From Aestuariivirga sp. (GTDB lineage: Bacteria; Pseudomonadota; Alphaproteobacteria; Rhizobiales; Aestuariivirgaceae): a stretch of 64,000 nucleotides of DNA. Below the pieces are notes generated by a model. The model saw only the letters and a program-made list of their open reading frames with translations, made no database searches and was not told the origin of the DNA. The translations under genes and the position numbers were made by a program. The stretch is taken from the NCBI RefSeq assembly GCF_020252395.1, contig NZ_JADCDB010000021.1:62001-126000 (forward strand). Direction: 5' to 3'. Shown one piece after another: positions 47,847 through 64,000 of the stretch. Positions within the stretch are counted from its first letter, which is position 1, and every line of letters starts with the position of its first letter.

Positions 47847-49046
47847 TCAAACCCGGGCGAGCGCAAGCGAAATTCCCTGCCCCACGCCCACGCACATGGT
47901 GGCAAGCGCCAGCTTGTGCCCACCGAGGCTCAGGTCCAGCGCCGCCGTGCCGGCAAGCCGCGCGCCCGACATGCCGAGCGGGTGGCCCAGTGCTATGGCC
48001 CCGCCATTGGGGTTCACATGCGGCGCATCATCGGCAAGGCCGAGCTGGCGTTGCACCGCGAGCGCCTGCGCGGCGAAAGCCTCGTTGAGCTCAATGACGC
48101 CGAACCGATCGGCCTTGAGGCCGAGACGCGCGCAGAGCTTCTGCGTGGCGGGCACCGGCCCCAGCCCCATGATGCGCGGCGCAAGGCCCGCTGTGGCCGC
48201 ACCCAGGATGCGCGCCAGCGGCTGCAGACCATGACGCTTCACCGCTGCTTCCGAGGCGATGATGAGCGCGGCCGCGCCGTCATTGACGCCCGAGGCATTG
48301 CCCGCCGTCACGCTGCCGCCTTGCCGGAAGGGTGTTGGAAGCTTTGCCAGGGACTCGAGGCTGGTGGCGCGCGGGTGCTCGTCCTTGTCGAAGATGACCG
48401 GGTCGCCCTTGCGCTGCGGGACGGTGACCGGCGTGATCTCGCGGGCGAAGCGGCCATTGCCTTGTGCGGCCAGCGCGCGCGTCTGCGAACGGAGTGCGAA
48501 GGCATCCTGATCGGCGCGCGAGATGGCGCAGCCGGCGGCGACGTTCTCCGCCGTCTCGGGCATGGAGTCGATGCCGTATTGCGCCTTGATCACGGGATTG
48601 ACGAAGCGCCAGCCGATGGTTGTGTCATGGATCTCGGCATGGCGCGAGAAGGCCTCGGTGGCTTTGGGCATCACGAAGGGTGCGCGCGACATGGATTCGA
48701 CACCGCCCGCGATGGCGAGATCGATCTCGCCAGCCTTGATGGCGCGCGCGGCCATGGCGACAGCGTCCATGCCGGAGCCGCAGAGTCTATTGACGGTGAC
48801 GCCAGGCACGCTCTCGGGCAGGCCCGACAGCAGCACCGCCATGCGCGCCACGTTGCGATTGTCCTCGCCTGCCTGGTTGGCGCAGCCGAGGATCACCTCG
48901 TCCACCGCCGTCCAGTCGAGCGAGGCGTGCTTCTGAATCAGCGCCTTGATGGAGATCGCCGCGAGGTCATCCGTGCGCACCGAGGACAGCGCGCCGCCGA
49001 AGCGGCCGATGGGTGTGCGCAGGTAATCGCAGATGAAGGCGTCCAT
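47847..49046 (-). CDS. Acetyl-CoA acyltransferase (PcaF/PaaJ-like thiolase)
   Basis: A 399-residue degradative thiolase. C89 (NRLCGSGMDA) is the acyl-carrying cysteine, H355 (GHPLGMSG) and C385 (MCVGVGQG) complete the active site. The N-terminus DAFICDYLRTPIGRFGGALS is that of beta-ketoadipyl-CoA thiolases. It would perform the last thiolysis of the ring-derived dicarboxylic CoA ester to succinyl- or glutaryl-type products plus acetyl-CoA. ATG 49046 has GAAAGGACATTTC upstream. Third gene of an operon with hydratase and dehydrogenase. Confidence 0.92.
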   Translation of the reverse strand: MDAFICDYLRTPIGRFGGALSSVRTDDLAAISIKALIQKHASLDWTAVDEVILGCANQAGEDNRNVARMAVLLSGLPESVPGVTVNRLCGSGMDAVAMAARAIKAGEIDLAIAGGVESMSRAPFVMPKATEAFSRHAEIHDTTIGWRFVNPVIKAQYGIDSMPETAENVAAGCAISRADQDAFALRSQTRALAAQGNGRFAREITPVTVPQRKGDPVIFDKDEHPRATSLESLAKLPTPFRQGGSVTAGNASGVNDGAAALIIASEAAVKRHGLQPLARILGAATAGLAPRIMGLGPVPATQKLCARLGLKADRFGVIELNEAFAAQALAVQRQLGLADDAPHVNPNGGAIALGHPLGMSGARLAGTAALDLSLGGHKLALATMCVGVGQGISLALARV

Positions 49047-49057
49047 GAAATGTCCTT

Positions 49058-50191
49058 TCAGCCGCCGATGCGTGGCGCGAGCGCGGGGCTTGGCGTGTAG
49101 CGGCCCTTGAGATGTGCAGGCGCGGCGGACTCGCATGCGGTGAGCGTTGAGAGGATTGCGGCGGCCCCGTGACTGCGGGCCGACTCGAAGGGGCCGCGCG
49201 GGAAGTTGAGGCCGAGCTTCAAGGCCGTGTCGATGTCGTCCGGTGCGAGACCGCTCTCCTGCGCGAGGAAGGCCGCCTCGTTGGCGAGCGCCGCCTCGAT
49301 GCGGCGCGCGATCGCCTGCCAGTCGGCAGGCGCTTCACCGGGCGTTGCGGGGTGGAGAAAGCCCCGGCCGGACTTGCGGCCGAGATGGCCCTGCTCCACC
49401 TGTTTCACGAGCGCGTCGAAGACGTGGTAGCGCGGGTGGCCAGCCATCGCCGCCGACAGCCCGCGCGTGGCGGCGAGGTTGATGTCGGCGCCGATCAGGT
49501 CGATGAGGCTGAAGGGGCCCAGCCTGTATCCCGCCTTCAGCATGGCGGAATCGATGCCGGAGGCGGAGCGCCCTTCCTCCAGCATCGCCAGCGCCTCGCC
49601 ATAGTAAGGCCTGGCACAGCGGTTGACGATGAAGCCCGGCGTATCGCGGCAGGCAATCACCGTCTTGCCGGCGGCTTGCGTAAGGCTGCGCGCCAGTTCG
49701 GTGGCTTCATCCGATGCGCCCTGCGGCACGGCGAGCTCGACGAGCTTCATGACAGGCGCGGGATTGAAGAAGTGCAATCCGATGCCGCGCGCCGGACGGG
49801 CGAGCCTGGCCATGATAGCGGCGACGGAAAGGGAGGAGGTGTTCGTGGCCAGCACTGTCTCCGCTGACACATGGCGCTCCACCTCGGCGAACAGCGCCTG
49901 CTTGACGGCAAGGTCTTCCACCACCGCCTCGATCACCAGCCGCGCCTTGCTCAGTTCAGCCATGTCATCCGTGACGGTGAGGTTGCCGAGCGTCGCATCT
50001 CGCTCTGCCTCGGGCAGCTTGCCAGCCTTCACCCGCGCATCAAGCGACTGTGCAAGCCGGTCCTTCGCGGACTCGCGCGCGGCTGCAACGGCGTCGAATG
50101 CGATCACCCGGCGCCCGGCCTCAGCATAGAGCTGGGCGATGCCGAGACCCATGGTGCCCAGGCCCAGCACGGCGATGACGGGCTTGGTCAT
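49058..50191 (-). CDS. 3-hydroxyacyl-CoA dehydrogenase
   Basis: A 377-residue NAD-dependent dehydrogenase. The Rossmann motif is LGLGTMGLGIAQ near residues 9-20, followed by the catalytic HFFNPAPVMKLVE and ACRDTPGFIVNR segments; a second C-terminal helical domain (about 290-377) follows. PaaH-like in the N-terminal part. Overlaps the enoyl-CoA hydratase stop as ATGA. It oxidises the 3-hydroxyacyl-CoA made by the hydratase before thiolysis. Confidence 0.92.
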   Translation of the reverse strand: MTKPVIAVLGLGTMGLGIAQLYAEAGRRVIAFDAVAAARESAKDRLAQSLDARVKAGKLPEAERDATLGNLTVTDDMAELSKARLVIEAVVEDLAVKQALFAEVERHVSAETVLATNTSSLSVAAIMARLARPARGIGLHFFNPAPVMKLVELAVPQGASDEATELARSLTQAAGKTVIACRDTPGFIVNRCARPYYGEALAMLEEGRSASGIDSAMLKAGYRLGPFSLIDLIGADINLAATRGLSAAMAGHPRYHVFDALVKQVEQGHLGRKSGRGFLHPATPGEAPADWQAIARRIEAALANEAAFLAQESGLAPDDIDTALKLGLNFPRGPFESARSHGAAAILSTLTACESAAPAHLKGRYTPSPALAPRIGG

Positions 50192-50946
50192 TGACTCTTG
50201 AACTCCGGCTTGCGCTTCTCGCGGAACGCGGCGATGCCTTCTGTCTTGTCGGCGCTGTCGAGAAGCTTTTCGAACAGCGTGCGCTCCAGCGTGAGGGCCG
50301 CGGGGTTATCATCGCCATTAACCAGCGCGCGCTTGGCGGCCTGCAGCGCCAGCGGCGCGCGGGTTGCGAGTTTGGCCGCCAGCTTCTCACCCTCGGGGAT
50401 GGCCGAACCTTCGCTCTTCCACGCCGCGATGCCCCAGGCCTCCGCCGTGGCGGCATCGATGATCTCGCCCGTCAGCACCATGCGGCTGGCGCGCGCCCGG
50501 CCGGCGAGCGACATGAGGCGCTGGCCGCCGCCGGCACCCGGAATGAGGCCAAGGTTGGTTTCCGGCAGGCCGAAGCGCGCCGTCTCGCCGGCGATGACCA
50601 GGTCCGACATGAGGGCGAGCTCGAAGCCGCCGCCCAGGGCGAAGCCATCGACGGCAGCGATCAGCGGCTTGCGGAAGCCGCGGATCGTCTGCCAGTGCGC
50701 CTTGCGCGGGTCAGCCGCACCTTCCGCACGGGTCTTGTGCTCGATTTCGCCGATGTCCGCCCCGGCGGCGAAGTTGCCCTCCGCCCCGCAGAGCAGCACG
50801 GCGCGGCAGGAGGCGTTCGCCGCCGCCCCCATCAGCGCCGCGGCGAGCTGGCTCAACAGTTCCGTGTTCAGCGCATTGCGGGCGGCGGGGCGGTTGAGCG
50901 TCAGCTTCAGCCAGCCTTCATGGCGGTCGATCAGCAGGTCATCCAT
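50188..50946 (-). CDS. Enoyl-CoA hydratase (crotonase family, complete active site)
   Basis: A 252-residue crotonase. Both catalytic glutamates are present: E109 in GFALGGGFELAL and E129 in FGLPETNLGLIPGAGG, and the oxyanion-hole segment is NFAAGADIGE. First gene of the beta-oxidation operon (hydratase, dehydrogenase, thiolase) and divergent from the fused monooxygenase/reductase; the shared 112-base region holds a strong palindrome. Confidence 0.93.
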   Translation of the reverse strand: MDDLLIDRHEGWLKLTLNRPAARNALNTELLSQLAAALMGAAANASCRAVLLCGAEGNFAAGADIGEIEHKTRAEGAADPRKAHWQTIRGFRKPLIAAVDGFALGGGFELALMSDLVIAGETARFGLPETNLGLIPGAGGGQRLMSLAGRARASRMVLTGEIIDAATAEAWGIAAWKSEGSAIPEGEKLAAKLATRAPLALQAAKRALVNGDDNPAALTLERTLFEKLLDSADKTEGIAAFREKRKPEFKSQ

Positions 50947-50973
50947 GCCCGCATGATGCCCGCGCGTGGAGAA

Positions 50974-51004
50974 ATTTCAAGTTCGAATATTTTGAACTTG
51001 AAAT
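50974..51004. promoter_or_regulatory. 11-bp-arm palindromic operator in divergent aromatic-CoA promoter
   Basis: ATTTCAAGTTC (50974-50984) and GAACTTGAAAT (50994-51004) are perfect inverted arms around the AT-rich GAATATTTT. It sits in the 112-base gap between the divergent hydratase and monooxygenase genes. Size and symmetry fit a MarR dimer site; the MarR gene at 53341 is the natural candidate. Confidence 0.75.
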
Positions 51005-51058
51005 ACTACCGGCGCCATGCCAGCCTCCCAATGCCCTGCAGTCCCGGGAGATTTTCGC

Positions 51059-53344
51059 ATGCGCATTCTGTGTCTCGGCGGCGGCCCCGCCGGCCTTTAT
51101 TTCGCGATCTCGATGAAGCTGCGCGACCCGGCGCATCAGGTGACGGTGCTGGAGCGGAACCGCGCCAATGACACTTTCGGCTGGGGCGTCGTCCTCTCCG
51201 ACGATGCCCTCTCCCGCATGCAGAAGAACGACCCCAAGAGCACCGGCGCCATCCGCAGCCATTTCGCCTATTGGGATGACATCGCGGTGGTGCACAACGG
51301 CCAGCGCACCGTCTCCGGCGGCCACGGCTTCGCCGGCATTGGCCGCAAGCAGATGCTGATCCTGCTGCAGGCGCGGGCCCGCGAGCTGGGCGTCGACCTG
51401 CAATTCCAGACCGAGTTCAAGTCGGCGGCGGAATACGCCAAGGACCATGACCTGGTGGTCGCCTGCGACGGCATCAACTCGCTGGTGCGCACGGAATTCG
51501 CCGAGGTGTTCAAGCCCGATATCGACATGCGGCTGTGCAAGTTCATCTGGCTCGGCACGCACCAGAAATTCGACGATGCTTTCACCTTCATCTTCGAGCA
51601 AACCGCGCACGGCTGGGTCTGGGCGCATGTCTACCAGTTCGATGCCGATACCGCGACCTTCATCGTCGAATGCCTGCCCGGGACGTGGAGCCGCTGGGGC
51701 TTCGCGGAGATGTCGAAGGAAGAGACCGTCGCCACCTGCGAGACGATCTTCGCCAAGCACTTAGGCGGCCATGCGCTGATGTCGAATGCCGCGCACCTGC
51801 GCGGTTCCGCGGTGTGGATGCAGTTCCCGCGCGTTATCTGCGAGCGCTGGTATCACAACAATGTCGTGCTGATGGGCGATGCGGCGGCGACGGGGCATTT
51901 CTCCATCGGCTCCGGATCGCGTCTCGCCTTCGACAGCGCGATTGCGCTGGCGGACTACCTGCACTCGGAACCCACGATGGAGCAGGCCTTCCAGCGCTAT
52001 CAGGACGAGCGGCGCGTCGAGGTGCTGCGCTTGCAGTCCGCCGCGCGCAACAGCCTCGAATGGTTCGAGCAGGTGGAGCGCTACCTCGATCTGCCGCCCT
52101 TGCAATTCGCCTATTCGCTGCTGACGCGAAGCCAGCGCATCAGCCACGAGAACCTGCGCCTGCGCGACCCGCAGTGGCTGCGCGCGGCGGAGGACTGGTT
52201 CCAGGAACAGGCCGGTGGTAGCAAGGGCCGTGCGCCGATGTTCGCGCCCTTCCGGCTGCGCAACATGCAGCTCAAGAACCGCCTCGTCGTCTCGCCCATG
52301 GCGCAATACAAGGCCGTGGATGGCTGCCCCACCGACTGGCACTTCGTGCATTACGCCGAGCGCGCCAAGGGCGGCGCCGGTCTGGTCTATACCGAGATGG
52401 CCTGCGTGTCGCCTGAGGGCCGCATCACGCCCGGCTGCCCCGGGCTTTATGCGCCGGAGCATGAGGCGCAGTGGTCGCGTCTCGCCGATTTCGTGCATGC
52501 CGAGACCACGGCGAAGATCTGCTGCCAGATCGGCCATGCGGGCCGCAAGGCCTCGGTGCAGGCGCCGTGGGAGGATGACGAGATGCCGCTGGTGACGGGC
52601 GGCTGGGAGACGATCGCCCCGTCCGCCATCGCCTGGTCGCCGAAACACAAGGCGCCGCGCGAGATGACGCGCGCCGACATGGATAAGGTGACGGCGCAGT
52701 TCGTGGCGGCGACAGAAATGGCGAAGCGCGCGGGCTTCGACATGGTGGAACTCCACGCCGCACACGGCTACCTGATCTCAAGCTTCATCTCGCCCACGTC
52801 GAACCGCCGCACGGATGAATATGGCGGCAGCCTCGAGAACCGCATGCGCTGGCCGCTCGAGGTGTTCCGCGCCATGCGCAAGGCGTGGGGCGAGGCTAGC
52901 CCCATGTCGGTGCGCATCTCCGCCAATGACTGGGTGGGGGCCGACGGCATCACGCCGGGCGATGCCGTGGAGGTGGCCAAGCTGTTCCACGCGGCGGGGG
53001 CGGACATCATCGATGTTTCCGCCGGCCAGACCAGCATCGCGGCAAAGCCCGTCTATGGCCGCATGTTCCAGACGCCGTTCAGCGACCGCATCCGCAACGA
53101 GGCTGACATTGCCACCATGGCGGTGGGCAACATCACCGAGGCCGACCAGGTGAACTCCATCCTGCTCGCTGGCCGCGCCGATCTCGTCTGCCTCGCCCGC
53201 CCGCATCTGGCGGACCCCTACTGGACGCTGCATGCGGCGGTTCAGATGGGGGACGAGGCGAGCGAGTGGCCAGCCCCCTATCGCGCCGGGCGCGACCAGG
53301 CCTTCCGCCTGCGCGGGAAATCTGCTGAGGCGATCCGCGTATGA
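51059..53344 (+). CDS. 2-aminobenzoyl-CoA monooxygenase/reductase-type fusion (salicylyl-CoA 5-hydroxylase/oxidoreductase family)
   Basis: A 761-residue two-domain flavoprotein. The N-terminal half (1 to about 385) is an aromatic-ring flavin monooxygenase with [10 protein letters not shown] at 7-16, [11 protein letters not shown] and [14 protein letters not shown] near 274. The C-terminal half (about 391-761) is an old-yellow-enzyme with [22 protein letters not shown] and [14 protein letters not shown]. This fusion matches 2-aminobenzoyl-CoA monooxygenase/reductase of Azoarcus evansii, which hydroxylates and then reduces the ring of the CoA thioester; relatives are annotated as bifunctional salicylyl-CoA 5-hydroxylase/oxidoreductase. 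ATG 51059 has GGGAGATTTTCGC upstream. RidA and beta-oxidation genes alongside favour the amino substrate. Confidence 0.9.
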
Positions 53345-53796
53345 ACGCACCCGATACGGATCCGCTCTCCAAGCGCCGCCTGAAGATGTGGATCAGGCTC
53401 TTGGGCGTCGCACGCGCCGCAGAGAGCAGCCTTCGCGAATATCTCCGCGTCGAGCACGGCACCACGCTGCCGCGCTTCGACGTGATGGCGGCCCTTTATC
53501 GCCGCCGCGACGGCGCCACCATGTCGGAGCTGAGCCGCATGCTGCTTGTCTCCAACGGCAATGCCACGGCGGTGGTGGACCGGCTGGAGAAGGACGGGCT
53601 GGTGCGCCGCACGGCCTCCGAAACCGACCGCCGCACCGTCCATGTGGCGCTGACACCCGAAGGCCTGCGCCAGTTCGAGCGGCTCGCGGCGGACCACGAG
53701 CGCGAGATCAACACGCTGTTTGCCGGCCTGAGCGACAGTGACGTCGAGCAGGTCACCGCGCTGCTGAAGCGCATGAGCAAGGGAGACAAGCCATGA
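53341..53796 (+). CDS. MarR family transcriptional regulator of the aromatic-CoA cluster
   Basis: A 151-residue MarR protein with the recognition region [29 protein letters not shown] and the wing [19 protein letters not shown] (residue spans about 58-105). It overlaps both neighbours as ATGA and so is translated with the pathway genes. It probably represses the divergent promoter via the palindrome at 50974-51004 and is released by a CoA-ester intermediate, as for known MarR regulators of aromatic-CoA pathways; this is inference. Confidence 0.9.
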
Positions 53797-54605
53797 CGAC
53801 GCTTGCCGCTTATCAGCCGCAGCATTTCCTGTGGGAGGTGACGGATCGCGTCGCCACCATCCGCCTCAACCGCCCGGACCGCAAGAACCCGCTCACCTTC
53901 GAAAGCTATGCCGAGCTGCGCGATACCTTCCGCAGCCTCGCCTCTGCCGAGGACGTGGACGTCGTGGTTTTCGCCTCCAATGGCGGCAACTTCTGTTCCG
54001 GCGGCGACGTGCATGACATTATCGGGCCGCTGATCGGCCTCGACATGAAGGGCCTGCTCGCCTTCACGCGTATGACGGGTGATCTGGTCAAGGCGATGAT
54101 CTCCTGCGGCAAGCCGATCATCGCAGCGGTTGATGGCGTGTGCGTGGGCGCGGGCGCCATCGTCGCCATGGCCTCCGACCTGCGCCTTGCGACGCCGGAG
54201 GCCAAGGCGGCCTTCCTCTTCACCCGCGTGGGCCTTGCCGGCTGCGACATGGGCGCCTGCGCCATTCTCCCGCGCATCATCGGCCAGGGCCGCGCCGCGG
54301 AACTGCTCTATACCGGCCGCGTGATGACGGCGGCGGAGGGCGAGCGCTGGGGCTTCTGGAACGCGCTGCATGATGCGGCGTCACTGGAGGCGGAAGCAAT
54401 GAAGCTCGCGCGCGCCATCGCCGCGGGCCCCACCTTCGCGCATGGCATGACCAAGACGCAGCTGAACCAGGAATGGAACATGGGGCTGGAACAGGCGATC
54501 GAGGCGGAGGCCCAGGCGCAGGCCATCTGCATGCAGACGAAGGATTTCGGGCGCGCCTACCGGGCTTTCGTGGCCAGGCAGAAACCCGTGTTCGAGGGGA
54601 ACTGA
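53793..54605 (+). CDS. Crotonase-fold protein lacking both hydratase glutamates
   Basis: A 270-residue enoyl-CoA hydratase superfamily member. The oxyanion-hole region ([22 protein letters not shown]) is kept, but aligning to crotonase puts I123 and R145 where the two catalytic glutamates should be. D152 in [11 protein letters not shown] may take a catalytic role, as an aspartate does in other superfamily branches. Hydrolase, ring-opening or isomerase chemistry is therefore more likely than simple hydration. It is coupled to MarR (ATGA overlap) and followed one base later by the acyl-CoA dehydrogenase. Confidence 0.88.
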
Positions 54606-54606
54606 C

Positions 54607-55746
54607 ATGGGTGACACCAGCTATCTCGACTGGCCCTTCTTCGAGCCGCGCCACCGGGCTCTGGCGGTGGAGCTCCATGGCTGGTGCAAGGAACACCTGA
54701 CGGGACATCATGCCGATGTGGATGCAGCCTGCCGCTCGCATGTGAGGAAGCTCGGCGCTTCGGGCTGGCTCAAATACACGGGCGCTGGCGATGGCGAAAA
54801 GCTCGACGTGCGCACGCTGTGCCTGATCCGCGAGATCATCGCGCAATATGACGGGCTCGCTGAATTCTCATTCGCCATGCAGGGCCTCGGCATGGGAGCG
54901 GTGACGCTGTTCGGCACGCCCGAGCAGAAGCAGTGGCTGGCCCGCACGCGCAGCGGCGAAGCCATCGCCGGCTTCGCCATCACCGAGCCCGAAGCGGGCT
55001 CCGATGCGGCGGCAACGAAGATGACGGCCACCCGCGTGCAGGGCGGCTTCGTGCTGAACGGCGAGAAGACCTATATTTCCAACGGCGGCATCGCCGATGT
55101 CTATGCCGTCTTCGCCCGCACCGGCGAGGCGCCCGGCGCCAAGGGGCTCTCGGCGTTTCTGGTGCCCGCCGACACGAAGGGCCTCACGGTGGCCGGGCGC
55201 ATCGACGTGATGGCGCCGCATCCCCTCGCCCTGCTGAACTTCGAAAATGTCGAAATCCCCGAGGGCGCGCTCATCGGCAAGCCGGGGGATGGATTCAAGA
55301 TCGCCATGTCGGTGCTCGACGTCTTCCGCTCCACCGTGGGCGCCGCCGCTGTCGGCTTCGCGCGCCGCGCGCTGGATGAAACGCTGGCGCGGGTGAAGGC
55401 GCGCAAGGTGGGTGGGGCACCACTCGCCGAGCTTCAGATGGTGCAGGGCCACATTGCCGACATGGCGCTCGACATCGATGCCTCGGCATTGCTCGTCTAC
55501 CGCGCCGCCTGGACCAAAGACATGGGGCAACCGCGCATCACGCGCGAGGCCTCCATGGCCAAGCTCAATGCGACGGAGGCCGCTCAGCGCGTCATCGACA
55601 TGGCGGTGCAGCTCCATGGTGGCGATGGCGTGAAGCACGGCGCCGTGGTCGAGCGTCTCTACCGTGAAATCCGCGCGTTGCGCATCTATGAGGGGGCGAG
55701 CGACGTGCAGCGCGTGATCATCGCCCGCGCCGTGCTGGGAGGCTGA
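54607..55746 (+). CDS. Acyl-CoA dehydrogenase
   Basis: A 379-residue FAD flavoenzyme of the acyl-CoA dehydrogenase family. FAITEPEAGSDAAATKM and GEKTYISNGGIADVY are the FAD and substrate segments, and the C-terminal IYEGASDVQR carries the catalytic-base glutamate E362. It would introduce or remove a double bond in the CoA-bound ring or its ring-opened product. Starts one base after the crotonase stop; RidA follows in 2 bases. Confidence 0.92.
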   Translation: MGDTSYLDWPFFEPRHRALAVELHGWCKEHLTGHHADVDAACRSHVRKLGASGWLKYTGAGDGEKLDVRTLCLIREIIAQYDGLAEFSFAMQGLGMGAVTLFGTPEQKQWLARTRSGEAIAGFAITEPEAGSDAAATKMTATRVQGGFVLNGEKTYISNGGIADVYAVFARTGEAPGAKGLSAFLVPADTKGLTVAGRIDVMAPHPLALLNFENVEIPEGALIGKPGDGFKIAMSVLDVFRSTVGAAAVGFARRALDETLARVKARKVGGAPLAELQMVQGHIADMALDIDASALLVYRAAWTKDMGQPRITREASMAKLNATEAAQRVIDMAVQLHGGDGVKHGAVVERLYREIRALRIYEGASDVQRVIIARAVLGG

Positions 55747-55748: not shown

Positions 55749-56159
55749 ATGACCGGATCGCCGCATGAATTCCTCCACCCGCGCGACTGGAAGCCGGCGC
55801 TGGGCTATGCCAATGGTGTCGCCGCCTCGGGCCGCATGATCTTCTGCGGCGGCCTCATCGGCTGGAATGCCCAGCAGGAATTCGAGTCCGACGACTTCAT
55901 CGACCAGGTGGCGCAGACGCTGAGGAACATCGTGGCAGTCTTGGCGGAGGCGGGCGCCGGGCCGGAGCACATCGTGCGACTCACCTGGTATGTGACCGAC
56001 AAGCAGGAATATCTGGCGCGGCTGAAGGAGCTGGGCCGCGTCTACCGCGAGATCATCGGCAAGCACTTCCCCGCCATGGCGCTGGTGCAGGTGGCGGCGC
56101 TCGTCGAGGACCGCGCCAAGGTGGAGATCGAGGCAACGGCGGTGGTCCCGCAGGCCTAG
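55749..56159 (+). CDS. RidA family enamine/imine deaminase
   Basis: A 136-residue member of the RidA/YjgF/Rid family with the usual signature IVRLTWYVTDKQEYLARL and FPAMALVQVAALVED. RidA enzymes hydrolyse reactive enamines and imines to ketones plus ammonia. In this cluster a natural substrate is the enamine formed when the 2-aminobenzoyl-CoA ring is reduced, which would account for release of the amino nitrogen. Last gene of the monooxygenase operon. Confidence 0.9.
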   Translation: MTGSPHEFLHPRDWKPALGYANGVAASGRMIFCGGLIGWNAQQEFESDDFIDQVAQTLRNIVAVLAEAGAGPEHIVRLTWYVTDKQEYLARLKELGRVYREIIGKHFPAMALVQVAALVEDRAKVEIEATAVVPQA

Positions 56160-56369: not shown

Positions 56370-56377
56370 CCGTTGCG

Positions 56378-56830
56378 CTAGCCGCGCTTCACCGGCTGGT
56401 GCGGATTGGCGTCTTCGTCCTTCGGCAGAAAGCTCATCAGCTTGGCGCGCACATCGTCGGGCCAGCTCATCGACGTGTGCTTGTCCAGCCAGCTGGCGGC
56501 CAGAACCTGATTGACCGTCCAACGCAATTCATCGCCGCACCAGATTTCATGGTCGAGCGCCACCGAGGAGCGGCCCACCTTTTTCACCGTGACGCGGAAG
56601 GTGAGCTTGTCGCCGAAGAAGGAGGGCTTGGAGAAATTGCAGGTGAGGTGCACCGTGGGCGTGCCCCAGCGCTCCTTCCAGATGATCTCGTGCCAGGGAT
56701 AGCCGATCCAGGTCCAGAACTCCTCCACCACGCCGTTGAGCAGGTTGAGATAGGACGGGTAATAGGCGGTGCCCGAGATATCGCAGTCGCCGAAGCGGAG
56801 CATGCGGTCGGTGGTGAAGCTGACAGCCAT
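56378..56830 (-). CDS. Acyl-CoA thioesterase, 4-hydroxybenzoyl-CoA thioesterase type
   Basis: A 150-residue hot-dog-fold thioesterase. RFGDCDISGTAYYPSYLNLLN contains the catalytic aspartate of the 4-hydroxybenzoyl-CoA thioesterase (4HBT) group. The size is that of a single-domain enzyme. ATG 56830 starts the fold; longer in-frame extensions are not conserved-looking. It could release an aromatic acid from CoA when the pathway stalls. It is 79 bases downstream of the exported VOC gene on the same strand. Confidence 0.88.
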   Translation of the reverse strand: MAVSFTTDRMLRFGDCDISGTAYYPSYLNLLNGVVEEFWTWIGYPWHEIIWKERWGTPTVHLTCNFSKPSFFGDKLTFRVTVKKVGRSSVALDHEIWCGDELRWTVNQVLAASWLDKHTSMSWPDDVRAKLMSFLPKDEDANPHQPVKRG

Positions 56831-56909: not shown

Positions 56910-57500
56910 TTACTTGGCCGGGTCCTTCGGCGACCACAGCACCGGGCCACCGTCTTTCTCATAGGCCATACCGCTGGGATAGGTGATGGCCTCGAGCTGC
57001 AGGCCCCAGGGCGACTGGAAATAAAGGATGGCCTGTCCGGCGGCGGGCCCCTGGTCCACCGGCAGCGGACCCAGACGCGTGGCGACACCCTTCTCGTCGA
57101 GGAAGGCCTTCGCCGCCTTGATGTCATCGACATAGAAGGCGATGTGGAAGGCGCCGATGTCGCTGTTCTTCTGGTTCAGCGTGCGCTGGTCTGGCGCCTT
57201 GTACTTGAACAGCTCGATGTTGGAGCCGAAGCCGCAGCGCATCATGGTGATCTGCTCGATGACGGCCTTGGAGTCGACGCCCAAGAGGTCGGTCATGAAG
57301 GTGCCCTTGTCATCGGCGAAGGGGCCGAAGGACATGGCCTTCTGGCAGCCGAGGATGTCGCTGAAGAAAGTGACGGCCTGGTCCATGTCAGGCACGGTGA
57401 TGCCGGTGTGGTCATGCCCGCGCATGCCGGGCATGGCAGCGTGGGCGGCAGAGAGGCTCAGCAGCAGCGCAGAGGCTGCCAGCAGGGCGCGCTTCATCAT
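56910..57500 (-). CDS. Exported VOC (glyoxalase/bleomycin-resistance fold) protein
   Basis: A 196-residue protein with a signal peptide (MKRALLAASALLLSLSAAHA, cleavage near 22) and one vicinal-oxygen-chelate domain. HDHTGITVPD supplies a metal-type histidine, FHIAFYVDDI a second, and the GLQLEAITYP end a glutamate, as in methylmalonyl-CoA epimerase and ring-cleaving dioxygenase relatives. VOC proteins are usually cytoplasmic, so export is notable. The double ATG at 57500/57497 follows GGAGGAACC. Divergent from the first phytoene-desaturase-like gene. Confidence 0.82.
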   Translation of the reverse strand: MMKRALLAASALLLSLSAAHAAMPGMRGHDHTGITVPDMDQAVTFFSDILGCQKAMSFGPFADDKGTFMTDLLGVDSKAVIEQITMMRCGFGSNIELFKYKAPDQRTLNQKNSDIGAFHIAFYVDDIKAAKAFLDEKGVATRLGPLPVDQGPAAGQAILYFQSPWGLQLEAITYPSGMAYEKDGGPVLWSPKDPAK

Positions 57501-57650: not shown

Positions 57651-57708
57651 CGGATTGACCCTCCAGGCCCGCTGTTGGAAGCTTCGCGCAAAGGACGGAG
57701 CATCCGGC

Positions 57709-59289
57709 ATGGCGACTTCCACATTCGATGCGGCGATCATCGGCGCGGGCCATAATGGGCTGTCCGCCGCGATCCACCTCGCCAAGCGCGGATGGCATGT
57801 CGGCGTCTTCGAGGCGAAGGCGGAGGCCGGCGGTGCGGTGAAGACGCGTGAGGTGACGCTGCCCGGTTTCCGGCACGACCTCGCCGCCATGAATCTCTCG
57901 ATGTTTGCGGGCTCGCCCTTCCTGCGCGAGCATGGCGAGGGGCTTGGCCGCCACGGCCTCGCCTTTGCGCCTGCCGCGCATTGCTTCGCCTCGGTATTCC
58001 CGGACCGCACATGGTTCGGCGTGTCGAAGGACGCTCGCCTCACCATGGCGCGGCTCAATGCGCTGGACCCGGGCGATGCGGAGGCCTGGGACGCGATGAT
58101 GCAGCGCTTCGGCAAGGACGCGCCGCATATCTTCGGGCTGCTCGGCAATGTCATGCCCTCCTGGGCCATGGCAAAGCTGATCTACAAGGCCTGGCGCGAG
58201 AACGGCACGGCCTGGACGCTGGACATGCTGCGCTTCCTCACCATGTCAACGCGCAGCTGGGCCGACATGCATTTCCGCAATGACAAGGTGAAGGCAACGC
58301 TCGCCGCCTGGGGCCTGCATCTCGACTTTCCGCCGGATGTTTCGGGCGGTGCGCTGTTTCCCTATCTCGAGTCGATGACCAACCAGGCCTTCGGCATGGC
58401 GATCGGCCAAGGCGGAGCCGGCATGATGATCCGTGCGCTGACGGGTTATCTGAAGGAGCTGGGTGGCGAGCTTCACCTCGATGCGCCGGTGGCGGAGGTC
58501 ATCCAATCCGCCGGCAGCGCCAGCGGCATCAGGCTCGCCAATGGCCGGACCATCACGGCGCGCCGGGCGGTGATTGCCAATGTCACGCCGCACGTGCTGT
58601 TCGGCAAGCTGCTGCCCAATGGCACGGGCAAGCCTGCGGTGGACGCCAAGTTCAAGGCCTTCCGCCCCGGTCCCGGCACCATGATGGTGCACCTCGCCAT
58701 GGACGGGCTGCCGGACTGGGCGGCGGGAGCCGAACTCAAGGACTTCGCCTATGTCCACATCGCGCCCGGCTTCGCCTACATGAACCGTGCCTATGGGGAG
58801 GCGATGGACGGGTTGCTGCCGGAGAAGCCCGTGCTGGTCGTGGGCCAGCCGACCGCTGTCGATAAATCCCGCGCGCCCGCGGGCAAGCATATCCTCTGGG
58901 TCCAGGTGCGCGTGCTGCCGAAGCTCGTGAAGGGCGATGCGGCGGGCCTCATCAAGGGCACGCAGTGGGCCGCAATCAAGGAGGCTTACGCCGACCGCGT
59001 TGTCTCCATCATCGAGGACTTTGCGCCGGGCACGCGGGCGAAGATCCTCGGCAGTGCGGTGTTCTCACCGGATGATCTCGAAGACGAAAATCCCTGCCTC
59101 GCTGGCGGCGACAATCTCTCGGGCAGCCACCAGCTGGACCAGAATTTTCTGTTCCGCCCCGTGGCCGGTTACTCGCGCTACAAGATGCCGCTGGAGCGCC
59201 TCTACATGTGCGGCGCCGCCACCTGGCCGGGGGCCGGCACGGGGGCGGGCTCGGGCTATCTGCTGGCCAAGATGCTGGGCGGCGGCTGA
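57709..59289 (+). CDS. Phytoene desaturase-like FAD oxidoreductase 1
   Basis: A 526-residue NAD(P)/FAD-dependent amine-oxidase-fold protein (COG1233). The dinucleotide motif is IIGAGHNGLSAAIHLAKRG at about 9-27, and the C-terminal FAD segment is YMCGAATWPGAGTGAGSGYLL. No carotenoid genes are nearby. Relatives outside carotenoid synthesis oxidise assorted hydrophobic or aromatic molecules. ATG 57709 lies after AAAGGACGGAG. With the second copy at 60224 it brackets the isatin-hydrolase-like gene, so it may oxidise an oxindole-type precursor; this is a guess. Confidence 0.85.
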   Translation: MATSTFDAAIIGAGHNGLSAAIHLAKRGWHVGVFEAKAEAGGAVKTREVTLPGFRHDLAAMNLSMFAGSPFLREHGEGLGRHGLAFAPAAHCFASVFPDRTWFGVSKDARLTMARLNALDPGDAEAWDAMMQRFGKDAPHIFGLLGNVMPSWAMAKLIYKAWRENGTAWTLDMLRFLTMSTRSWADMHFRNDKVKATLAAWGLHLDFPPDVSGGALFPYLESMTNQAFGMAIGQGGAGMMIRALTGYLKELGGELHLDAPVAEVIQSAGSASGIRLANGRTITARRAVIANVTPHVLFGKLLPNGTGKPAVDAKFKAFRPGPGTMMVHLAMDGLPDWAAGAELKDFAYVHIAPGFAYMNRAYGEAMDGLLPEKPVLVVGQPTAVDKSRAPAGKHILWVQVRVLPKLVKGDAAGLIKGTQWAAIKEAYADRVVSIIEDFAPGTRAKILGSAVFSPDDLEDENPCLAGGDNLSGSHQLDQNFLFRPVAGYSRYKMPLERLYMCGAATWPGAGTGAGSGYLLAKMLGGG

Positions 59290-59325
59290 TCTGTGCCCGC
59301 GCATGGATCATGTTGTTGCGATTGC

Positions 59326-59367
59326 GAAAACGCGAGGCCTCGGGCCCGTCCCGATGCTTGCGTTTTC
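59326..59367. repeat. Hairpin between flavoprotein and isatin-hydrolase-like genes
   Basis: GAAAACGC (59326-59333) pairs with GCGTTTTC (59360-59367) with further internal GC pairing. It lies 37 to 78 bases after the flavoprotein stop. It may limit readthrough or shield the transcript end. Confidence 0.4.
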
Positions 59368-59413
59368 ATGGGAATGAAATAGCTTCCGGCCATCAACCAA
59401 CGAGGAAAAGCCC

Positions 59414-60196
59414 ATGTCCAACCCCGTCACCGAACTTGCTTCCGCGCTGCTGTCGGGCCGCGTCGAGGTGGTCGATCTCACCGCCGTGCTCGGCCCCGAG
59501 ACGCCGCTGATCAAGCTGCCGCCGCAGATTGGCCTCAACACGCCGCAGGTCGAAATCCACACCATTTCGCATTATGACGACAAGGGTCCCTTCTGGGCCT
59601 GGAACTGGCTGAAGCTGGGCGAGCATTCGGGCACGCATTTCGATGCGCCGCAGCACTGGATCACCGGCAAGGACTATCCGGATGGCGCCACCGACACGAT
59701 CCCCGCGCGGAACTTCGTCGGCCCCGTCAACGTCATCGACTGCAGCGCCGAAGTGGCGAAGAACCCCGACTTCCTCTTGACCGTCGATCACATCAAGGCC
59801 TGGGAAGCCAAGCACGGCGAGATCGAGAAGGGCTCCTGGGTCGTGATGCGCACCGACTGGTATAAGCGCAATGGCAGCGAGAAGGACTTCCTCAACGCCG
59901 ACGAGACCGGCCCGCACTCGCCGGGGCCGACGGCCGAGGCGATCCAGTACCTGATCGACAAGGGCATCATGGGCTGGGGCTCCGAGACGGTGGGCACCGA
60001 TGCGGGCTCCGCTGGCGGCATGACCCCGCCCTTCCCCGCCCATAATCTGATGCACAAGAACAACCGCTACGGCCTCGCCTCGCTGTGCAACCTTGACAAG
60101 CTGCCGGCCAAGGGGGCCGTCATCATTGCCGCACCCTTGAAGATCAAGCATGGCACGGGCAGCCCGCTGCGCGTTCTGGCGCTGGTGGGCAAGTAA
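59414..60196 (+). CDS. Isatin hydrolase-like cyclase-family enzyme
   Basis: A 260-residue cytoplasmic metal hydrolase of the cyclase (KynB) superfamily. The metal motif HSGTHFDAPQHW gives H71, H75, D77 and H81, and the preceding PFWAWNWLKLGE matches isatin hydrolases, which open isatin to isatinate with manganese. The nearby 2-aminobenzoyl-CoA-type monooxygenase and indolepyruvate-type oxidoreductase support an indole-derived substrate. ATG 59414 follows CGAGGAAAAGCCC. An alternative is another lactam or lactone hydrolase of the same fold. Confidence 0.75.
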   Translation: MSNPVTELASALLSGRVEVVDLTAVLGPETPLIKLPPQIGLNTPQVEIHTISHYDDKGPFWAWNWLKLGEHSGTHFDAPQHWITGKDYPDGATDTIPARNFVGPVNVIDCSAEVAKNPDFLLTVDHIKAWEAKHGEIEKGSWVVMRTDWYKRNGSEKDFLNADETGPHSPGPTAEAIQYLIDKGIMGWGSETVGTDAGSAGGMTPPFPAHNLMHKNNRYGLASLCNLDKLPAKGAVIIAAPLKIKHGTGSPLRVLALVGK

Positions 60197-60223
60197 GACG
60201 CAAGGCAAGAGAAGGAACGCGGC

Positions 60224-61798
60224 ATGGCCGACTATGTGATCGCCGGCAGCGGCATCAACGCGCTCGTCGCCGCGTCCCTTCTCGCTCTCAAGGGCCGCAA
60301 GGTTCTGGTGCTGGAACGCAATGCCGTGACGGGCGGCTGCATGCGCACGGAAGAGGCGACGGCGCCCGGCTTCACGCATGACGTGATGGCGACGACCTTC
60401 GTGCTGTTCCTGCTGTCGCCGGCCTATGCCGCACTCGGCAAGGAGCTGGAGAAGCGCGGGCTTTCCTTCGCGCATCCGGACATCCCCACGGGCGTGCTCC
60501 GCCCGGATGGTTCGCACCTCGTGCTGACGCGCGACCGGGCAAAGAACATCGCGGCCTTCAACGCCCTGGCCGAGGGCGATGGCGCGCAATATGCCGCCGA
60601 CATGGATGCGCTGGGCGCCAATGCGCCCTTCCTCTTCGCGCTGCTGGGCGGCAAGCTGTGGTCCTGGGACATGGCGAAACTGGTGGCGCGCGAGGCGTGG
60701 AAGCGCGGGCCGGCTGGACTTTCCGCCTTCTTCGGCGCGGCGCTGATCCCGGCGCGGCGCTGGCTGCAGCCCTATTACAAGTCCGACCGCTTCCACGCGC
60801 TGATGGCGCCCTGGGTGCTGCATTGCGGGCTGGGGCCCGAGAGCACCTATTCCGGCCAGATGGCCAAGGTAATCGCCTTCGCGCTGGAAGCCGCGGGCGC
60901 GCCCATCGTCAAGGGCGGTGCGCGGACTATCATCACGGCTTTCGAGCAGCTGATCCGCGACCATGGCGGCGAGATCCGCACCGGAGCCGACGTGGCGGAG
61001 GTGACTGTCGACGAGGCGGGCCGCGCCACCGGCGTGGTGCTGGCTTCGGGGGAGCGCATCGCGGCAGCCGAGGGCGTGATCTGCTCCATGACGCCCAACC
61101 AGCTCTATGGACGCTTGCTGAAGAACTGGCCCGGCGCCGCCCCACAGCGCGAGGAGACGCGCGGCTTCGTCTATGGCAAGGGCAACATGCAGATCCACTA
61201 CGCGCTGAAGGCGCCCCCGCAGTGGAAAGACCCGGAGCTTGCGAAGGTGGCGCTGCTGCATCTCACCCCCGGCCTCGACGGCGTGTCCAAGGCGGTGAAC
61301 GAGGCGGAGCGCGGCATGCTGCCGGCGGAACCAACCATCTGCCTCGGCCAGCCGGCAAGCTTCGACCCCTCGCGCGCGCCCGCAGGCCGGGCAATCCTGT
61401 GGCTGCAGCTGCCCGAATGCCCCCGCCACATCAAGGGCGATGCCACAGGCGAGATTGCGGCTCCCGCCGACGGCCGCTGGACGGAAGCTGTGCGCGAGGC
61501 CTATGCGGACCGCATCGAGGCGATCCTTGCCCGGCATATTCCCGATTTCAAATCACTGGTGCTGGCCCGGCGCTGCTATTCGCCCGCCGATCTCGAGGCG
61601 ATGAACGTCAATCTCGTGGGCGGCGATCCCTATGGCGGGGCCTGCACCATCGACCAGTTCTTCCTGTGGCGGCCGCTGCGCGGGCTCAAGAACCATGAGA
61701 CCCCGGTGAAGCGCCTGTGGCAGATCGGCGCTTCCACGCATCCGGGCCCCGGCCTTGGTGGAGGCTCCGGTTTCCTGCTGGCCTCGTCGCTGAAATGA
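60224..61798 (+). CDS. Phytoene desaturase-like FAD oxidoreductase 2
   Basis: A 524-residue paralogue of the 57709 protein. The FAD motif is IAGSGINALVAASLLALKG, and the C-terminal segment is LWQIGASTHPGPGLGGGSGFLL. Both proteins share the NxTPxxLxGxLL-type and SRAPAGxxILWxQ segments, so they are related but diverged, possibly forming a heteromer. It follows the isatin-hydrolase-like gene by 27 bases and overlaps the MarR start as ATGA. Confidence 0.85.
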   Translation: MADYVIAGSGINALVAASLLALKGRKVLVLERNAVTGGCMRTEEATAPGFTHDVMATTFVLFLLSPAYAALGKELEKRGLSFAHPDIPTGVLRPDGSHLVLTRDRAKNIAAFNALAEGDGAQYAADMDALGANAPFLFALLGGKLWSWDMAKLVAREAWKRGPAGLSAFFGAALIPARRWLQPYYKSDRFHALMAPWVLHCGLGPESTYSGQMAKVIAFALEAAGAPIVKGGARTIITAFEQLIRDHGGEIRTGADVAEVTVDEAGRATGVVLASGERIAAAEGVICSMTPNQLYGRLLKNWPGAAPQREETRGFVYGKGNMQIHYALKAPPQWKDPELAKVALLHLTPGLDGVSKAVNEAERGMLPAEPTICLGQPASFDPSRAPAGRAILWLQLPECPRHIKGDATGEIAAPADGRWTEAVREAYADRIEAILARHIPDFKSLVLARRCYSPADLEAMNVNLVGGDPYGGACTIDQFFLWRPLRGLKNHETPVKRLWQIGASTHPGPGLGGGSGFLLASSLK

Positions 61799-62316
61799 CG
61801 CGCGACCTCGCCTTCCTCAGCGGCGTGCTGCACCGCGAGGCAGATGGCGACACCTCGCTCCCGTCGCTGGCCGAGATTGGGCTCAATTACTTCGTGCCCT
61901 ATCTCATCAACCGCATTGCGGCGACATGGAATGCCGGTCTTGCGGGGGAGCTCCGCAAGTTCGGCCTCACCACGCCGCAGATGCGGGCACTCGCGGTGCT
62001 CGGCATCAATTCCGGCCTTACCATCAACGAGCTCTCGACGCTGACGGTCACCGAGCAGTCCACCATGAGCCGAACGCTCGATACGCTCGAGGCCCGTGGC
62101 TTCGTCGGCCGCCGCCCGCGGGCGAGCGACCTGCGCGTGCGCGAAATCGAGATCACCGCGGCGGGCCGGGAGGCCTTCGATGCCTTCTGGCCGGTGATGT
62201 TCCAGCACTACGATCAAATGTTCCGCGGCATCGGCGAGGAGGAGTTCTCGCAGCTTGTGGCGACATTGCAGAAAGTGCTGCGGAATATCAGGCTGTCTGG
62301 CGAGACCGAGGGGTGA
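61795..62316 (+). CDS. MarR family transcriptional regulator
   Basis: A 173-residue MarR protein with a longer N-terminus (about 40 residues before the first dimerisation helix). DNA-binding region: LTINELSTLTVTEQSTMSRT followed by the wing RRPRASDLRVREIEIT. Coupled to the upstream flavoprotein by an ATGA overlap and convergent to the oxidoreductase beta gene with a 4-base gap. Probably regulates the flavoprotein/isatin-hydrolase operon and perhaps the adjacent oxidoreductase. Confidence 0.9.
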   Translation: MTRDLAFLSGVLHREADGDTSLPSLAEIGLNYFVPYLINRIAATWNAGLAGELRKFGLTTPQMRALAVLGINSGLTINELSTLTVTEQSTMSRTLDTLEARGFVGRRPRASDLRVREIEITAAGREAFDAFWPVMFQHYDQMFRGIGEEEFSQLVATLQKVLRNIRLSGETEG

Positions 62317-62320
62317 CGTC

Positions 62321-63844
62321 TTAAAGCTCGCGCAGCGTTTTCAGCGCGCCGTCGAGCGCGTCGCCGTTCTCGTCCTTCAGCGCCGCGGAGATCAGCCGGT
62401 CCATCCATGCGCCGCCGTCAGCGCGGGCTTCGAGCAGCGGCGCGGCTGACAGCACGCGGTCGAACTTCGAAAGCCCGCGGGCATGGGTGTCGGAATAGCC
62501 CTTGATGAGGCGGCGCGCTGCGAGGATGGCGCGGGCGAGGCCGTAATTGTTAGGCAGCGTGCGCGTGGCGAGACCGAGCCAGGCTTCCATGTGGCGCATC
62601 TCAGCCTCGTGGCGCAGCAGCTTGCGGCGGAAGCGGCGCAGGCCCGCCACAATGTGAAACTGCAGGAAGCCCCGGACGGAATGCGTGCGGATGCGCCGGT
62701 CGCGGTTCACCAGCCAGTCGATGCGGGCCATCCAGGCGCGACTCGCCATAACTTTACGGCCCCATGCCGCAGGCAGCAGGCTCACCACCTCATCGCCGCG
62801 CGGATGCACGAATTCGGTGAGTTGCAGCGGGTCCTCCCCCGCCTTCATCTCGGTGGCGATGCGCGCGAAGCGGGCGGAGCGGATCTTGAGGTCGGCCACG
62901 CCGATCACGTCGTCATAGGCCATGGCATTGGCGACATGCTTCGCCGCGGCGGCGGTGAAAGCGAAGCCATGGGCTTCGCCGCCCTGAGCCCCATCGAGGC
63001 CACGCAGTGCTTCCAGCCGCGACAGATATTCATCGCCATAGGCGAGGTCCTGATAGTCGATGCAACGCTTGAGGCCGGCGAGCGCCGCCGTCTGCGCCGG
63101 CGCCGGCAGTGCACGGACGCGGGCGAGGCGCCGGTCGAGTTCGGCTGCGCCCAGCGTGTCCGGGATTCCCTGCACCTTCTTGCGTGAGATGCGCGCCTCC
63201 GGCAGTTCGTTCACCGTCGCGCGTGCGAAGCCCTCGGCAAAGCCCTTGAGCGAGGCCTTCACGCCGCGCCCGCCTTCCGAGATCACCGCCTCGAAACTCG
63301 CCCGGCCGAAGGGCAGCGCACCGGAACCTGCCAGCGCGCCAAATAGGGGTGCGGAGATCACTGTGCCTGACTCACGCGCCGCCTCGTCCTTGTCGAAGGC
63401 GATGACGCGCCGCGCCGCGATGCCGGCGGCGGCATTCACCGCCTGCGGGTCGGCAATCGACTCGCCGGGCTTTTCCTTTTCCGCCACGGCATAGGCGCGG
63501 TGGGTGGAGGTGATGAGCAGTGTCCGATCCGGCGTGACGAGGCCGCGCAGGATGGAGCGGCCAGCCTCCATCAGCTCCGCCGCGATGACGATATCGACAT
63601 CGCCCGGTGACGGCATCAGCGCCAGCACGGGCGCGCGGCCATCCTTCGGCGGCAGCATCTCGATGTAATAGAGCGTGGCGCCGGTGCGCTGGGCGACGCC
63701 GGGCACGGAGGTCGACTGGGCGTGCCAGCCATTGGCCTCCGCCACCGAGACGATCCAGTCCGACAGCACGCCGCCGCCCTGGCCGCCCATGGCGAGAATG
63801 GCGATCGTCAGCGGTTTGTCGCGCGGGATCGAGGCGTCGAACAT
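62321..63844 (-). CDS. iorB: Indolepyruvate-type 2-oxoacid:ferredoxin oxidoreductase, beta subunit (long form)
   Basis: A 507-residue protein. Residues 1-200 are the 2-oxoacid ferredoxin oxidoreductase gamma domain (AILAMGGQGGGVLSDWI; GDVDIVIAAELMEAGRS), the piece found in IorB. A C-terminal region of about 300 residues, rich in arginine and helix, is typical of the long beta-family form in proteobacteria. Together with the alpha subunit it converts an aryl-pyruvate-type 2-oxo acid plus CoA to acyl-CoA and reduced ferredoxin. The start overlaps the alpha-subunit stop as ATGA. Substrate here may be indolepyruvate or, as proposed in the findings, isatinate. Confidence 0.85.
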   Translation of the reverse strand: MFDASIPRDKPLTIAILAMGGQGGGVLSDWIVSVAEANGWHAQSTSVPGVAQRTGATLYYIEMLPPKDGRAPVLALMPSPGDVDIVIAAELMEAGRSILRGLVTPDRTLLITSTHRAYAVAEKEKPGESIADPQAVNAAAGIAARRVIAFDKDEAARESGTVISAPLFGALAGSGALPFGRASFEAVISEGGRGVKASLKGFAEGFARATVNELPEARISRKKVQGIPDTLGAAELDRRLARVRALPAPAQTAALAGLKRCIDYQDLAYGDEYLSRLEALRGLDGAQGGEAHGFAFTAAAAKHVANAMAYDDVIGVADLKIRSARFARIATEMKAGEDPLQLTEFVHPRGDEVVSLLPAAWGRKVMASRAWMARIDWLVNRDRRIRTHSVRGFLQFHIVAGLRRFRRKLLRHEAEMRHMEAWLGLATRTLPNNYGLARAILAARRLIKGYSDTHARGLSKFDRVLSAAPLLEARADGGAWMDRLISAALKDENGDALDGALKTLREL

Positions 63845-64000
63845 CAGGCCTCAACCCGCGCGAAGAGGTGGCGGCCACGCTCACGCCGGCGCTGCAGGAA
63901 GGAGATGACATTGGCACGCAGCTTCGCCTTGAAGCGCACCCAGCCGCTCGCATTGCGCAGCACGTCTGCGCGGTAGAAGGACGGGCAGAGGATCGCGGCC
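63844..64000 (-). CDS. iorA: Indolepyruvate-type oxidoreductase alpha subunit, C-terminal 51 residues only
   Basis: The reverse strand reads open from the window edge to TGA at 63844-63846. The fragment, ILCPSFYRADVLRNASGW and then FLQRRRERGRHLFARVEA, contains a cysteine-serine-phenylalanine-tyrosine segment and a basic tail as found at the end of long indolepyruvate ferredoxin oxidoreductase alpha chains. Identity rests on this and on the ATGA-coupled beta subunit. Confidence 0.6.
   Translation of the reverse strand, partial: AAILCPSFYRADVLRNASGWVRFKAKLRANVISFLQRRRERGRHLFARVEA

Follow-up and report, generated by a model that had tools for sequence, protein, structure and literature searches.

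Isatinate and a possible direct route to 2-aminobenzoyl-CoA in an isatin gene cluster of Aestuariivirga sp.

Which enzyme takes over once isatin has been opened to isatinate, and can its product enter the 2-aminobenzoyl-coenzyme A (CoA) pathway, known from Azoarcus evansii, without passing through free anthranilate? The question is raised by a cluster at the end of a 64,000-nucleotide stretch of Aestuariivirga sp. DNA (the window: bases 62001-126000 of a contig 159 kb long; the 3.49-Mb genome is scored as 100% complete). In this cluster, an isatin hydrolase (IH), a 2-oxoacid:ferredoxin oxidoreductase of the two-gene IorAB type, and a 2-aminobenzoyl-CoA monooxygenase/reductase-type fusion enzyme are encoded together (Table 1). 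A preliminary description had proposed that IorAB converts isatinate directly to 2-aminobenzoyl-CoA. Since the oxidoreductase genes adjoin the isatin genes and the genome has no recognizable 2-aminobenzoate-CoA ligase, the oxidoreductase may indeed make this link itself. Judging from gene content and genome comparisons, we consider it probable that the cluster is an isatin catabolic unit in which IorAB connects isatinate to 2-aminobenzoyl-CoA.

In the pathway that we propose, two FAD oxidoreductases (FOX1 and FOX2) would oxidize an oxindole-type precursor to isatin, which IH would open to isatinate (2-aminophenylglyoxylate). IorAB would then decarboxylate isatinate oxidatively in the presence of CoA, yielding 2-aminobenzoyl-CoA and CO2 and passing the electrons to ferredoxin, the presumed acceptor. 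The fusion enzyme would dearomatize 2-aminobenzoyl-CoA, and RidA together with beta-oxidation would complete the breakdown, in an order of steps that we infer from the genes. An ATP-dependent 2-aminobenzoate-CoA ligase would be needed only where free anthranilate enters, for example from kynureninase. Phenylglyoxylate:acceptor oxidoreductase is a precedent for the oxidative decarboxylation of a keto acid with a ring-borne carbonyl. Compared by description only, it resembles the proposed chemistry in turning an aroyl-formate and CoA into an aroyl-CoA and CO2, although it is a multi-subunit enzyme rather than one of the two-gene IorAB type. The enzyme families are known; the connection between them appears to be new, and its chemistry would be a plausible variant of known reactions.

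The absence of a ligase gene, which had been claimed for the window, extends well beyond it. Gene families were assigned with NCBIfam and Pfam, and the AMP-binding family PF00501 has no match anywhere on the 159-kb contig. Many related modules have the gene order fusion enzyme, MarR regulator, enoyl-CoA hydratase, acyl-CoA dehydrogenase, ligase, RidA; the ligase that follows the acyl-CoA dehydrogenase is absent here. The genome contains 10 AMP-binding genes, whose best-match labels are acetate, malonyl, propionate-like, and acetoacetate ligases, two acyl-CoA synthetases, a FadD7-like protein, a fatty acyl-AMP ligase, an acyl-ACP phospholipid acyltransferase, and an adenylation protein (the propionate-like, FadD7-like, acyltransferase, and adenylation labels are below cut-off). 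None of the 10 exceeds the TIGR02262 cut-off of 375 bits, the best score being 198 among the matches listed, with a ceiling of ~218 for four genes. Given that the ligase of such a module (L164:4022-5641; L and G numbers are our handles for loci and genomes) scores 367 bits, just below the same cut-off, this threshold cannot be relied on by itself. A direct search with this module ligase, to an E value of 1e-90 and with all 16 candidates scored, gave zero matches in the genome; its relatives form a group at ~48 to 80% identity, whereas proteins of this genome reach at most 30%.

The neighborhood comparison called for by the preliminary description was made in 199 genomes of the order (the order set, including the present genome, G000). 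Here, IorB is found in 37 genomes, the fusion enzyme in 61, the ligase in 57, and IH in 22. All 22 IH genomes have both IorB and the fusion enzyme, an association that is not due to chance, and the fusion enzyme is present in 36 of the 37 genomes with IorB versus 25 of the 162 without it. When fusion genes within 40 kb of IorB or IH were counted as linked, 1 of 9 linked genomes (G071; 1 of 8 without the present genome) had a ligase no more than 15 kb from the fusion gene, versus 43 of 52 unlinked genomes (P = 6e-5). The nine linked genomes fall into six families; counted by family, the result was 1 of 6 versus 16 of 20 (P = 0.01). Genomes with a fusion enzyme and no ligase anywhere numbered 4 of 22 with IH (G000, G085, G105, and G183) versus 1 of 39 without IH (G176, 75% complete); among genomes at least 90% complete, the counts were 4 of 21 versus 0 of 33 (P = 0.02). 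These ligase counts are based on the best seven candidates per genome and were confirmed with all candidates for G000 and G105, not for G085 and G183.

A wider search of the class (385 genomes) for fusion enzymes hit 73 places, distributed over 70 genomes, and we retrieved 66 of the 72 places outside the present genome, leaving out six short or cut matches. Among loci not cut by contig ends, a ligase was present in 31 and absent from 18 of the 49 without IorB or IH, and it was absent from all 3 with them. Fusion enzyme identity was below 58% at 17 of the 18 ligase-free loci, where these enzymes perhaps have other substrates; at identities of at least 58%, 20 of the 21 uncut loci without IorB or IH carried the ligase. 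Two of the three linked loci have only a distant IorB (37 and 32% identity) and a ligase elsewhere in the genome (G357 and G227).

These patterns do not amount to strict replacement of the ligase by IorAB, which we rejected. In 58 chosen genomes searched for the ligase (for G600, G612, and G615, the best 25 candidates were scored), 47 contain one somewhere, and many contain both IorAB and the ligase. Of the 11 genomes lacking a match, G389 and G487 are only 64 and 78% complete, G612 also lacks the fusion enzyme, and G589 has a fragmentary fusion gene. A weaker form survives, in which the ligase leaves the module of the fusion gene. Of 12 further linked modules that could be resolved in genomes reached mostly through IorB (those of G581, G589, and G591 are outside this count), 6 have no nearby ligase (G398, G582, G585, G586, G592, and G593), and 1 has a broken one. 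The broken gene belongs to Planktotalea arctica (L150:11983-13152; genome G584) and resembles 2-aminobenzoate-CoA ligase. Its 389-residue frame, located in an IH/IorAB-linked module, tracks the normal protein only to residue 320 and departs from it in the ATP-binding motif. A second fusion gene and a full-length ligase are present elsewhere in the P. arctica genome.

Several observations weigh against the reading that IorAB makes the CoA ester in this and similar clusters. The remaining 5 of the 12 further linked modules keep a ligase within 6 kb (G580, G583, G587, G588, and G590); overall, 6 of 21 resolved linked modules have a ligase nearby. In G579 the ligase lies inside the IH-IorAB cluster, while the fusion gene is on a different contig. 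Some of the cases scored as having no ligase nearby are less secure because of contig breaks, and part of the comparison consists of genomes reached through this very cluster, in which related genomes are not independent. Moreover, IH is missing from 15 of the 37 order genomes that carry IorB, and 14 of these 15 carry the fusion enzyme; IorAB may therefore act on a different substrate in them, and it may serve other keto acids as well. In some of these genomes, TRAP transporter genes lie near IorAB. An AMP-binding gene adjoins IorA in L074, L075, and L077, and the L075 copy exceeds the benzoate-CoA ligase cut-off. At these three loci (L075:4042-10803), a stand-alone homolog of the hydroxylase half of the fusion enzyme, an AMP-binding protein (of the benzoate-CoA ligase family in L075), and IorAB are encoded together, with TRAP genes nearby, an arrangement that is perhaps another aryl-CoA pathway using IorAB.

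In six of the nine linked order genomes, a ligase is encoded at a distance from the fusion gene. Kynureninase is within 1.5 kb of this ligase in G050, G069, and G136, and in Aestuariivirga litoralis (G068) the ligase gene adjoins tryptophan dioxygenase and is separated from the fusion gene by 31 kb. A kynureninase-adjacent ligase is off the contig of the fusion gene in G181 and also in G171, where contig ends leave the separation open; ligases beside kynureninase were also seen in L239 and L240. One of the ligase-free genomes, G105, has only a weak dioxygenase match; dioxygenase, kynureninase, and ligase occur together in G069 and G136, members of the same genus. These arrangements suggest two doors into one pathway, with anthranilate entering through the ligase and isatinate through IorAB. 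Not every genome fits, however. The separate ligases of G010 and G112 are beside neither kynureninase nor tryptophan dioxygenase; G029, G093, G188, and G194 have adjacent ligase and kynureninase genes with the fusion gene near as well; and the present genome has kynureninase without a ligase. Kynureninase is thus an incomplete explanation for ligase retention. Tryptophan dioxygenase agrees better with it: of the 22 IH genomes, 17 have the dioxygenase, 16 of these with a ligase, and 5 lack it, 2 of these with a ligase (P = 0.02), with weak PF03301 matches (~1e-20) in G085 and G105 counted as absent. In the present genome, the kynureninase gene adjoins a PF04199 gene (G000:C25:54347-56007), and PF03301 has no match.

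The product of the IH gene, which had been called an isatin-hydrolase-like enzyme, is an ortholog of the crystallized LaIHB (4j0n) of Roseibium (Labrenzia) aggregatum; it scores 320 bits against LaIHA. Its sole NCBIfam match is arylformamidase, at 33 bits. In LaIHA, His69, His73, and Asp75 are described as Mn ligands and His79, Asp193, and His207 as catalytic residues (in the passages available of PMC6117287), and all six are conserved in the window IH in an alignment to 5nnb counted by eye. An exact 50-residue stretch of 4j0n was recovered in L093 (R. aggregatum IAM 12614) and L095. Since this stretch is that of the hydrolase in the L093 cluster, whose gene order is ABC-FOX1-IH-FOX2-MarR2-IorA-IorB, the biochemically known isatin hydrolase belongs to a cluster of this type. 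R. aggregatum differs in showing no fusion gene up to 10 kb from IorB; in its genome (G594), a fusion gene and a ligase lie ~3 kb apart elsewhere. A second PF04199 protein is encoded in the window at 41884-42723 (minus strand), with a Tat-like leader by eye and 280 bits to the solved cyclase 8f9x; its neighbors look like sugar-type ABC transporter genes, again by eye.

The arrangement around IH recurs elsewhere. We assembled 116 IorB-centered loci, consisting of 36 of the 39 order-set places (the present genome apart and two short ones omitted) and 80 of 306 loci; some genomes are represented twice, and contig ends truncate some of the loci. Both FOX genes accompany an IH of at least 60% identity in 51 loci, 4 have an IH this similar without both FOX genes, 3 have an IH of 45 to 60%, and 58 have none in the stretch examined. 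Because their matches to characterized families are weak, FOX1 and FOX2 are candidates for new oxindole or indoxyl oxidases. A relative of the StyA-like flavin monooxygenase of L107 (205 bits, under the StyA cut-off of 550) occurs in 6 of the 51 FOX1-IH-FOX2 loci, all six with a flavin reductase relative (L107:11702-13442 and also L091, L110, L111, L152, and L160), which suggests indole as the starting substrate at those loci. Rieske oxygenase genes are present in 14 of the 116 loci, 2 of which also have IH. The structures closest to the regulator MarR2, 3cjn and 7kym, do not fix its ligand.

For IorAB itself, the preliminary description was right about IorB, which is complete in the window, and less so about IorA, which is almost wholly outside it. 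The whole IorA gene covers 63844-66006 in window numbering (L006:844-3006), so the window holds its last 157 bases, and it starts ~2 kb past the window end. Beyond IorA, a peptide/nickel-type ABC transporter is encoded (the binding protein is below cut-offs, and the other genes were identified by eye). Seven C-terminal Cys residues of IorA (positions 622 to 674), as expected of an Fe-S protein, are kept in 104 of 104 aligned sequences. The named records nearest to IorB are from A. litoralis (88%), a metagenome-assembled genome labeled Rhizobium sp. Q54 (85%), and an Aestuariivirga metagenome-assembled genome (75%). We found no clean IorA clade for isatin clusters; the contexts are interleaved in the tree, and phylogeny alone therefore does not define the substrate. 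Another thiamine diphosphate (TPP) enzyme, of three domains (PF02776, PF00205, and PF02775), is encoded at 31181-33529 (minus strand); since its domains begin at residue 194 of the open reading frame, the true start is probably further in.

The family name, together with a TIGR03336 match, raises the alternative that IorAB acts upstream as an indolepyruvate (arylpyruvate) oxidoreductase producing indoleacetyl-CoA, while another enzyme converts isatinate to free anthranilate for activation by an unrecognized ligase or CoA-transferase. Two broad acyl-CoA synthetases over cut-off (NF006020, 941 bits; NF004674, 873 bits) could be invoked for this activation, and CoA-transferases were not searched for. 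We regard this alternative as unlikely. The subunits are homologous to those of indolepyruvate:ferredoxin oxidoreductase, but they do not reach its curated cut-offs (TIGR03336, 281 versus 651 bits; TIGR03334, 28 versus 205.8 bits), and the proposed substrate differs. This alternative also leaves the absence of the ligase from IorAB/IH-linked modules unexplained. Finally, passages of PMC9613470 take IorAB homologs as markers exclusive to the iad (isatin-route) auxin operon, which acts on indoleacetate rather than indolepyruvate.

It is less probable still that IorAB decarboxylates isatinate to free anthranilate or 2-aminobenzaldehyde instead of a CoA ester. According to the parts of PMC12633357 available, Variovorax iadC-K2 alone restores anthranilate, which also speaks against direct formation of the CoA ester, and overexpressing strains accumulate C8H7NO3 and C7H7NO (an excerpt of PMC8383072 gives isatinic acid the formula C8H7NO3). 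However, going by its name, iadC-K2 excludes iadA and iadB, neither of which is mentioned in those parts of the main text, so the accumulated products need not come from IorAB. The present genome moreover offers anthranilate no recognized ligase and no dioxygenase that reaches a curated cut-off. Its three Rieske alpha subunits were considered as anthranilate dioxygenases and rejected (best score 103 versus a cut-off of 672); they are encoded on contigs C24 and C6, with no PF00848 match on the contig of the window, and score 129 to 152 bits to GbcA, below its cut-off of 670. Least probable is that the ligase has disappeared from a pathway that is now in decay or receives its CoA ester from another source: the broken P. 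arctica ligase would be in keeping with this, but the 12 cluster genes tested are all intact, and their dN (nonsynonymous substitution rate) is far below dS (synonymous substitution rate) versus A. litoralis (dN/dS roughly 0.06 to 0.19), so the pathway is being kept, and FOX1-IH-FOX2 recurs beside IorB in the 51 loci above.

The fusion enzyme and the full beta-oxidation set with RidA, both named in the preliminary description, were borne out, the latter at family level: an acyl-CoA dehydrogenase, two enoyl-CoA hydratases, a hydroxyacyl-CoA dehydrogenase, and a thiolase are encoded. Residues 1 to 358 of the fusion enzyme are VioD-like and residues 393 to 742 resemble Old Yellow Enzyme (OYE). 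NCBIfam names its family salicylyl-CoA 5-hydroxylase/oxidoreductase; 2-aminobenzoyl-CoA is the likely substrate, given the fusion, RidA, and the context. The likeness to the 2-aminobenzoyl-CoA pathway, for which the portion available of PMC6221969 names a ligase and a monooxygenase/reductase, lies in the fusion enzyme and beta-oxidation genes, and the difference lies in the missing ligase match. Genes for a thioesterase and a glyoxalase-fold protein sit between the isatin and fusion parts of the cluster.

Table 1. Genes of the isatin cluster, in window coordinates
Feature	Position	Strand	Evidence
3-Oxoadipyl-CoA-type thiolase (PcaF-like)	47847..49052	-	NF006551, 704 bits (cut-off 605)
3-Hydroxyacyl-CoA dehydrogenase	49058..50191	-	NF006124, 356 bits (below cut-off 508); family level only
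Enoyl-CoA hydratase, PaaF-like	50188..50946	-	Best NF007239, 267 bits (below cut-off 371)
2-Aminobenzoyl-CoA monooxygenase/reductase-type fusion (FAD hydroxylase + OYE-like reductase)	51059..53344	+	NF006101, 1255 bits (cut-off 1078)
MarR-family regulator 1 (fusion module)	53341..53796	+	MarR-type matches, none over cut-off; usual post-fusion position in class loci
Enoyl-CoA hydratase of fusion module	53793..54605	+	NF006107, 483 bits (cut-off 330)
Acyl-CoA dehydrogenase of fusion module	54607..55746	+	Family level, no cut-off reached
RidA-family protein	55749..56159	+	TIGR00004, 65 bits (below cut-off 106); family level
4HBT-type thioesterase	56378..56824 (start inferred)	-	PF13279 over cut-off
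Glyoxalase-fold protein	56910..57500 (start and signal peptide inferred by eye)	-	PF13669, PF00903 over cut-off
FOX1, CrtI/CrtO-like FAD oxidoreductase	57703..59289	+	TIGR02734, 122 bits (below cut-off 238); conserved beside IH
IH, LaIHB ortholog	59414..60196	+	427 bits to 4j0n; PF04199, 133 bits
FOX2, CrtI/CrtO-like FAD oxidoreductase	60224..61798	+	TIGR02734, 105 bits (below cut-off 238); conserved beside IH
MarR-family regulator 2 (MarR2)	61795..62316	+	Pfam MarR; nearest solved chains 3cjn (126 bits), 7kym (89 bits)
IorB-like subunit (POR domain + DUF6537)	62321..63844	-	NF006179 (PRK08312), 649 bits (cut-off 348); PF01558, PF20169
3' end of IorA (TPP-type subunit, Cys-rich ferredoxin-like end)	63844..64000	-	TIGR03336, 281 bits (below cut-off 651)

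Taken together, the missing ligase in a genome scored as complete, the separation of ligase and module elsewhere, the one broken ligase, and the position of some separated ligases beside kynureninase or tryptophan dioxygenase fit direct formation of 2-aminobenzoyl-CoA by IorAB, while the many genomes that keep both enzymes, the linked modules with a ligase nearby, and the IorB genomes without IH temper it. A close parallel is the iad locus of Variovorax and Bradyrhizobium, which in passages of PMC9613470 and PMC12633357 has IorA/IorB homologs, an amidase annotated as kynurenine formamidase, and a MarR regulator, with isatin and isatinic acid as intermediates; IadA and IadB are assigned no function in those passages. 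The Aestuariivirga cluster differs in having two CrtI-like FAD enzymes in place of a Rieske oxygenase (IadDE) beside IorAB. IorAB is common to loci with different oxygenases, for which the shared late intermediate would be isatin or isatinate. A broader and more tentative reading, which may hold, is that IorAB of this type is a general isatinate:ferredoxin oxidoreductase (CoA-acylating), found in alphaproteobacterial isatin clusters and as IadAB in iad loci, and that part of the anthranilate observed in auxin degraders is a by-product formed by strains or constructs that lack IorAB.

In the open-access literature, to the extent that its texts were available, we found no published description of an isatinate oxidoreductase or of a bypass of the ligase (most subscription journals were outside this scope), and in the same texts on bacterial indole and auxin degradation the gene for the step after isatinate is unassigned. 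If IorAB performs this step, the isatin route would feed the hybrid anthraniloyl-CoA pathway directly, saving the ATP of the ligase and gaining reduced ferredoxin, and a function would be at hand for IadA and IadB, the markers of auxin-degrading operons in root bacteria. If the general reading is also true, both indole and auxin breakdown would reach 2-aminobenzoyl-CoA without ATP.

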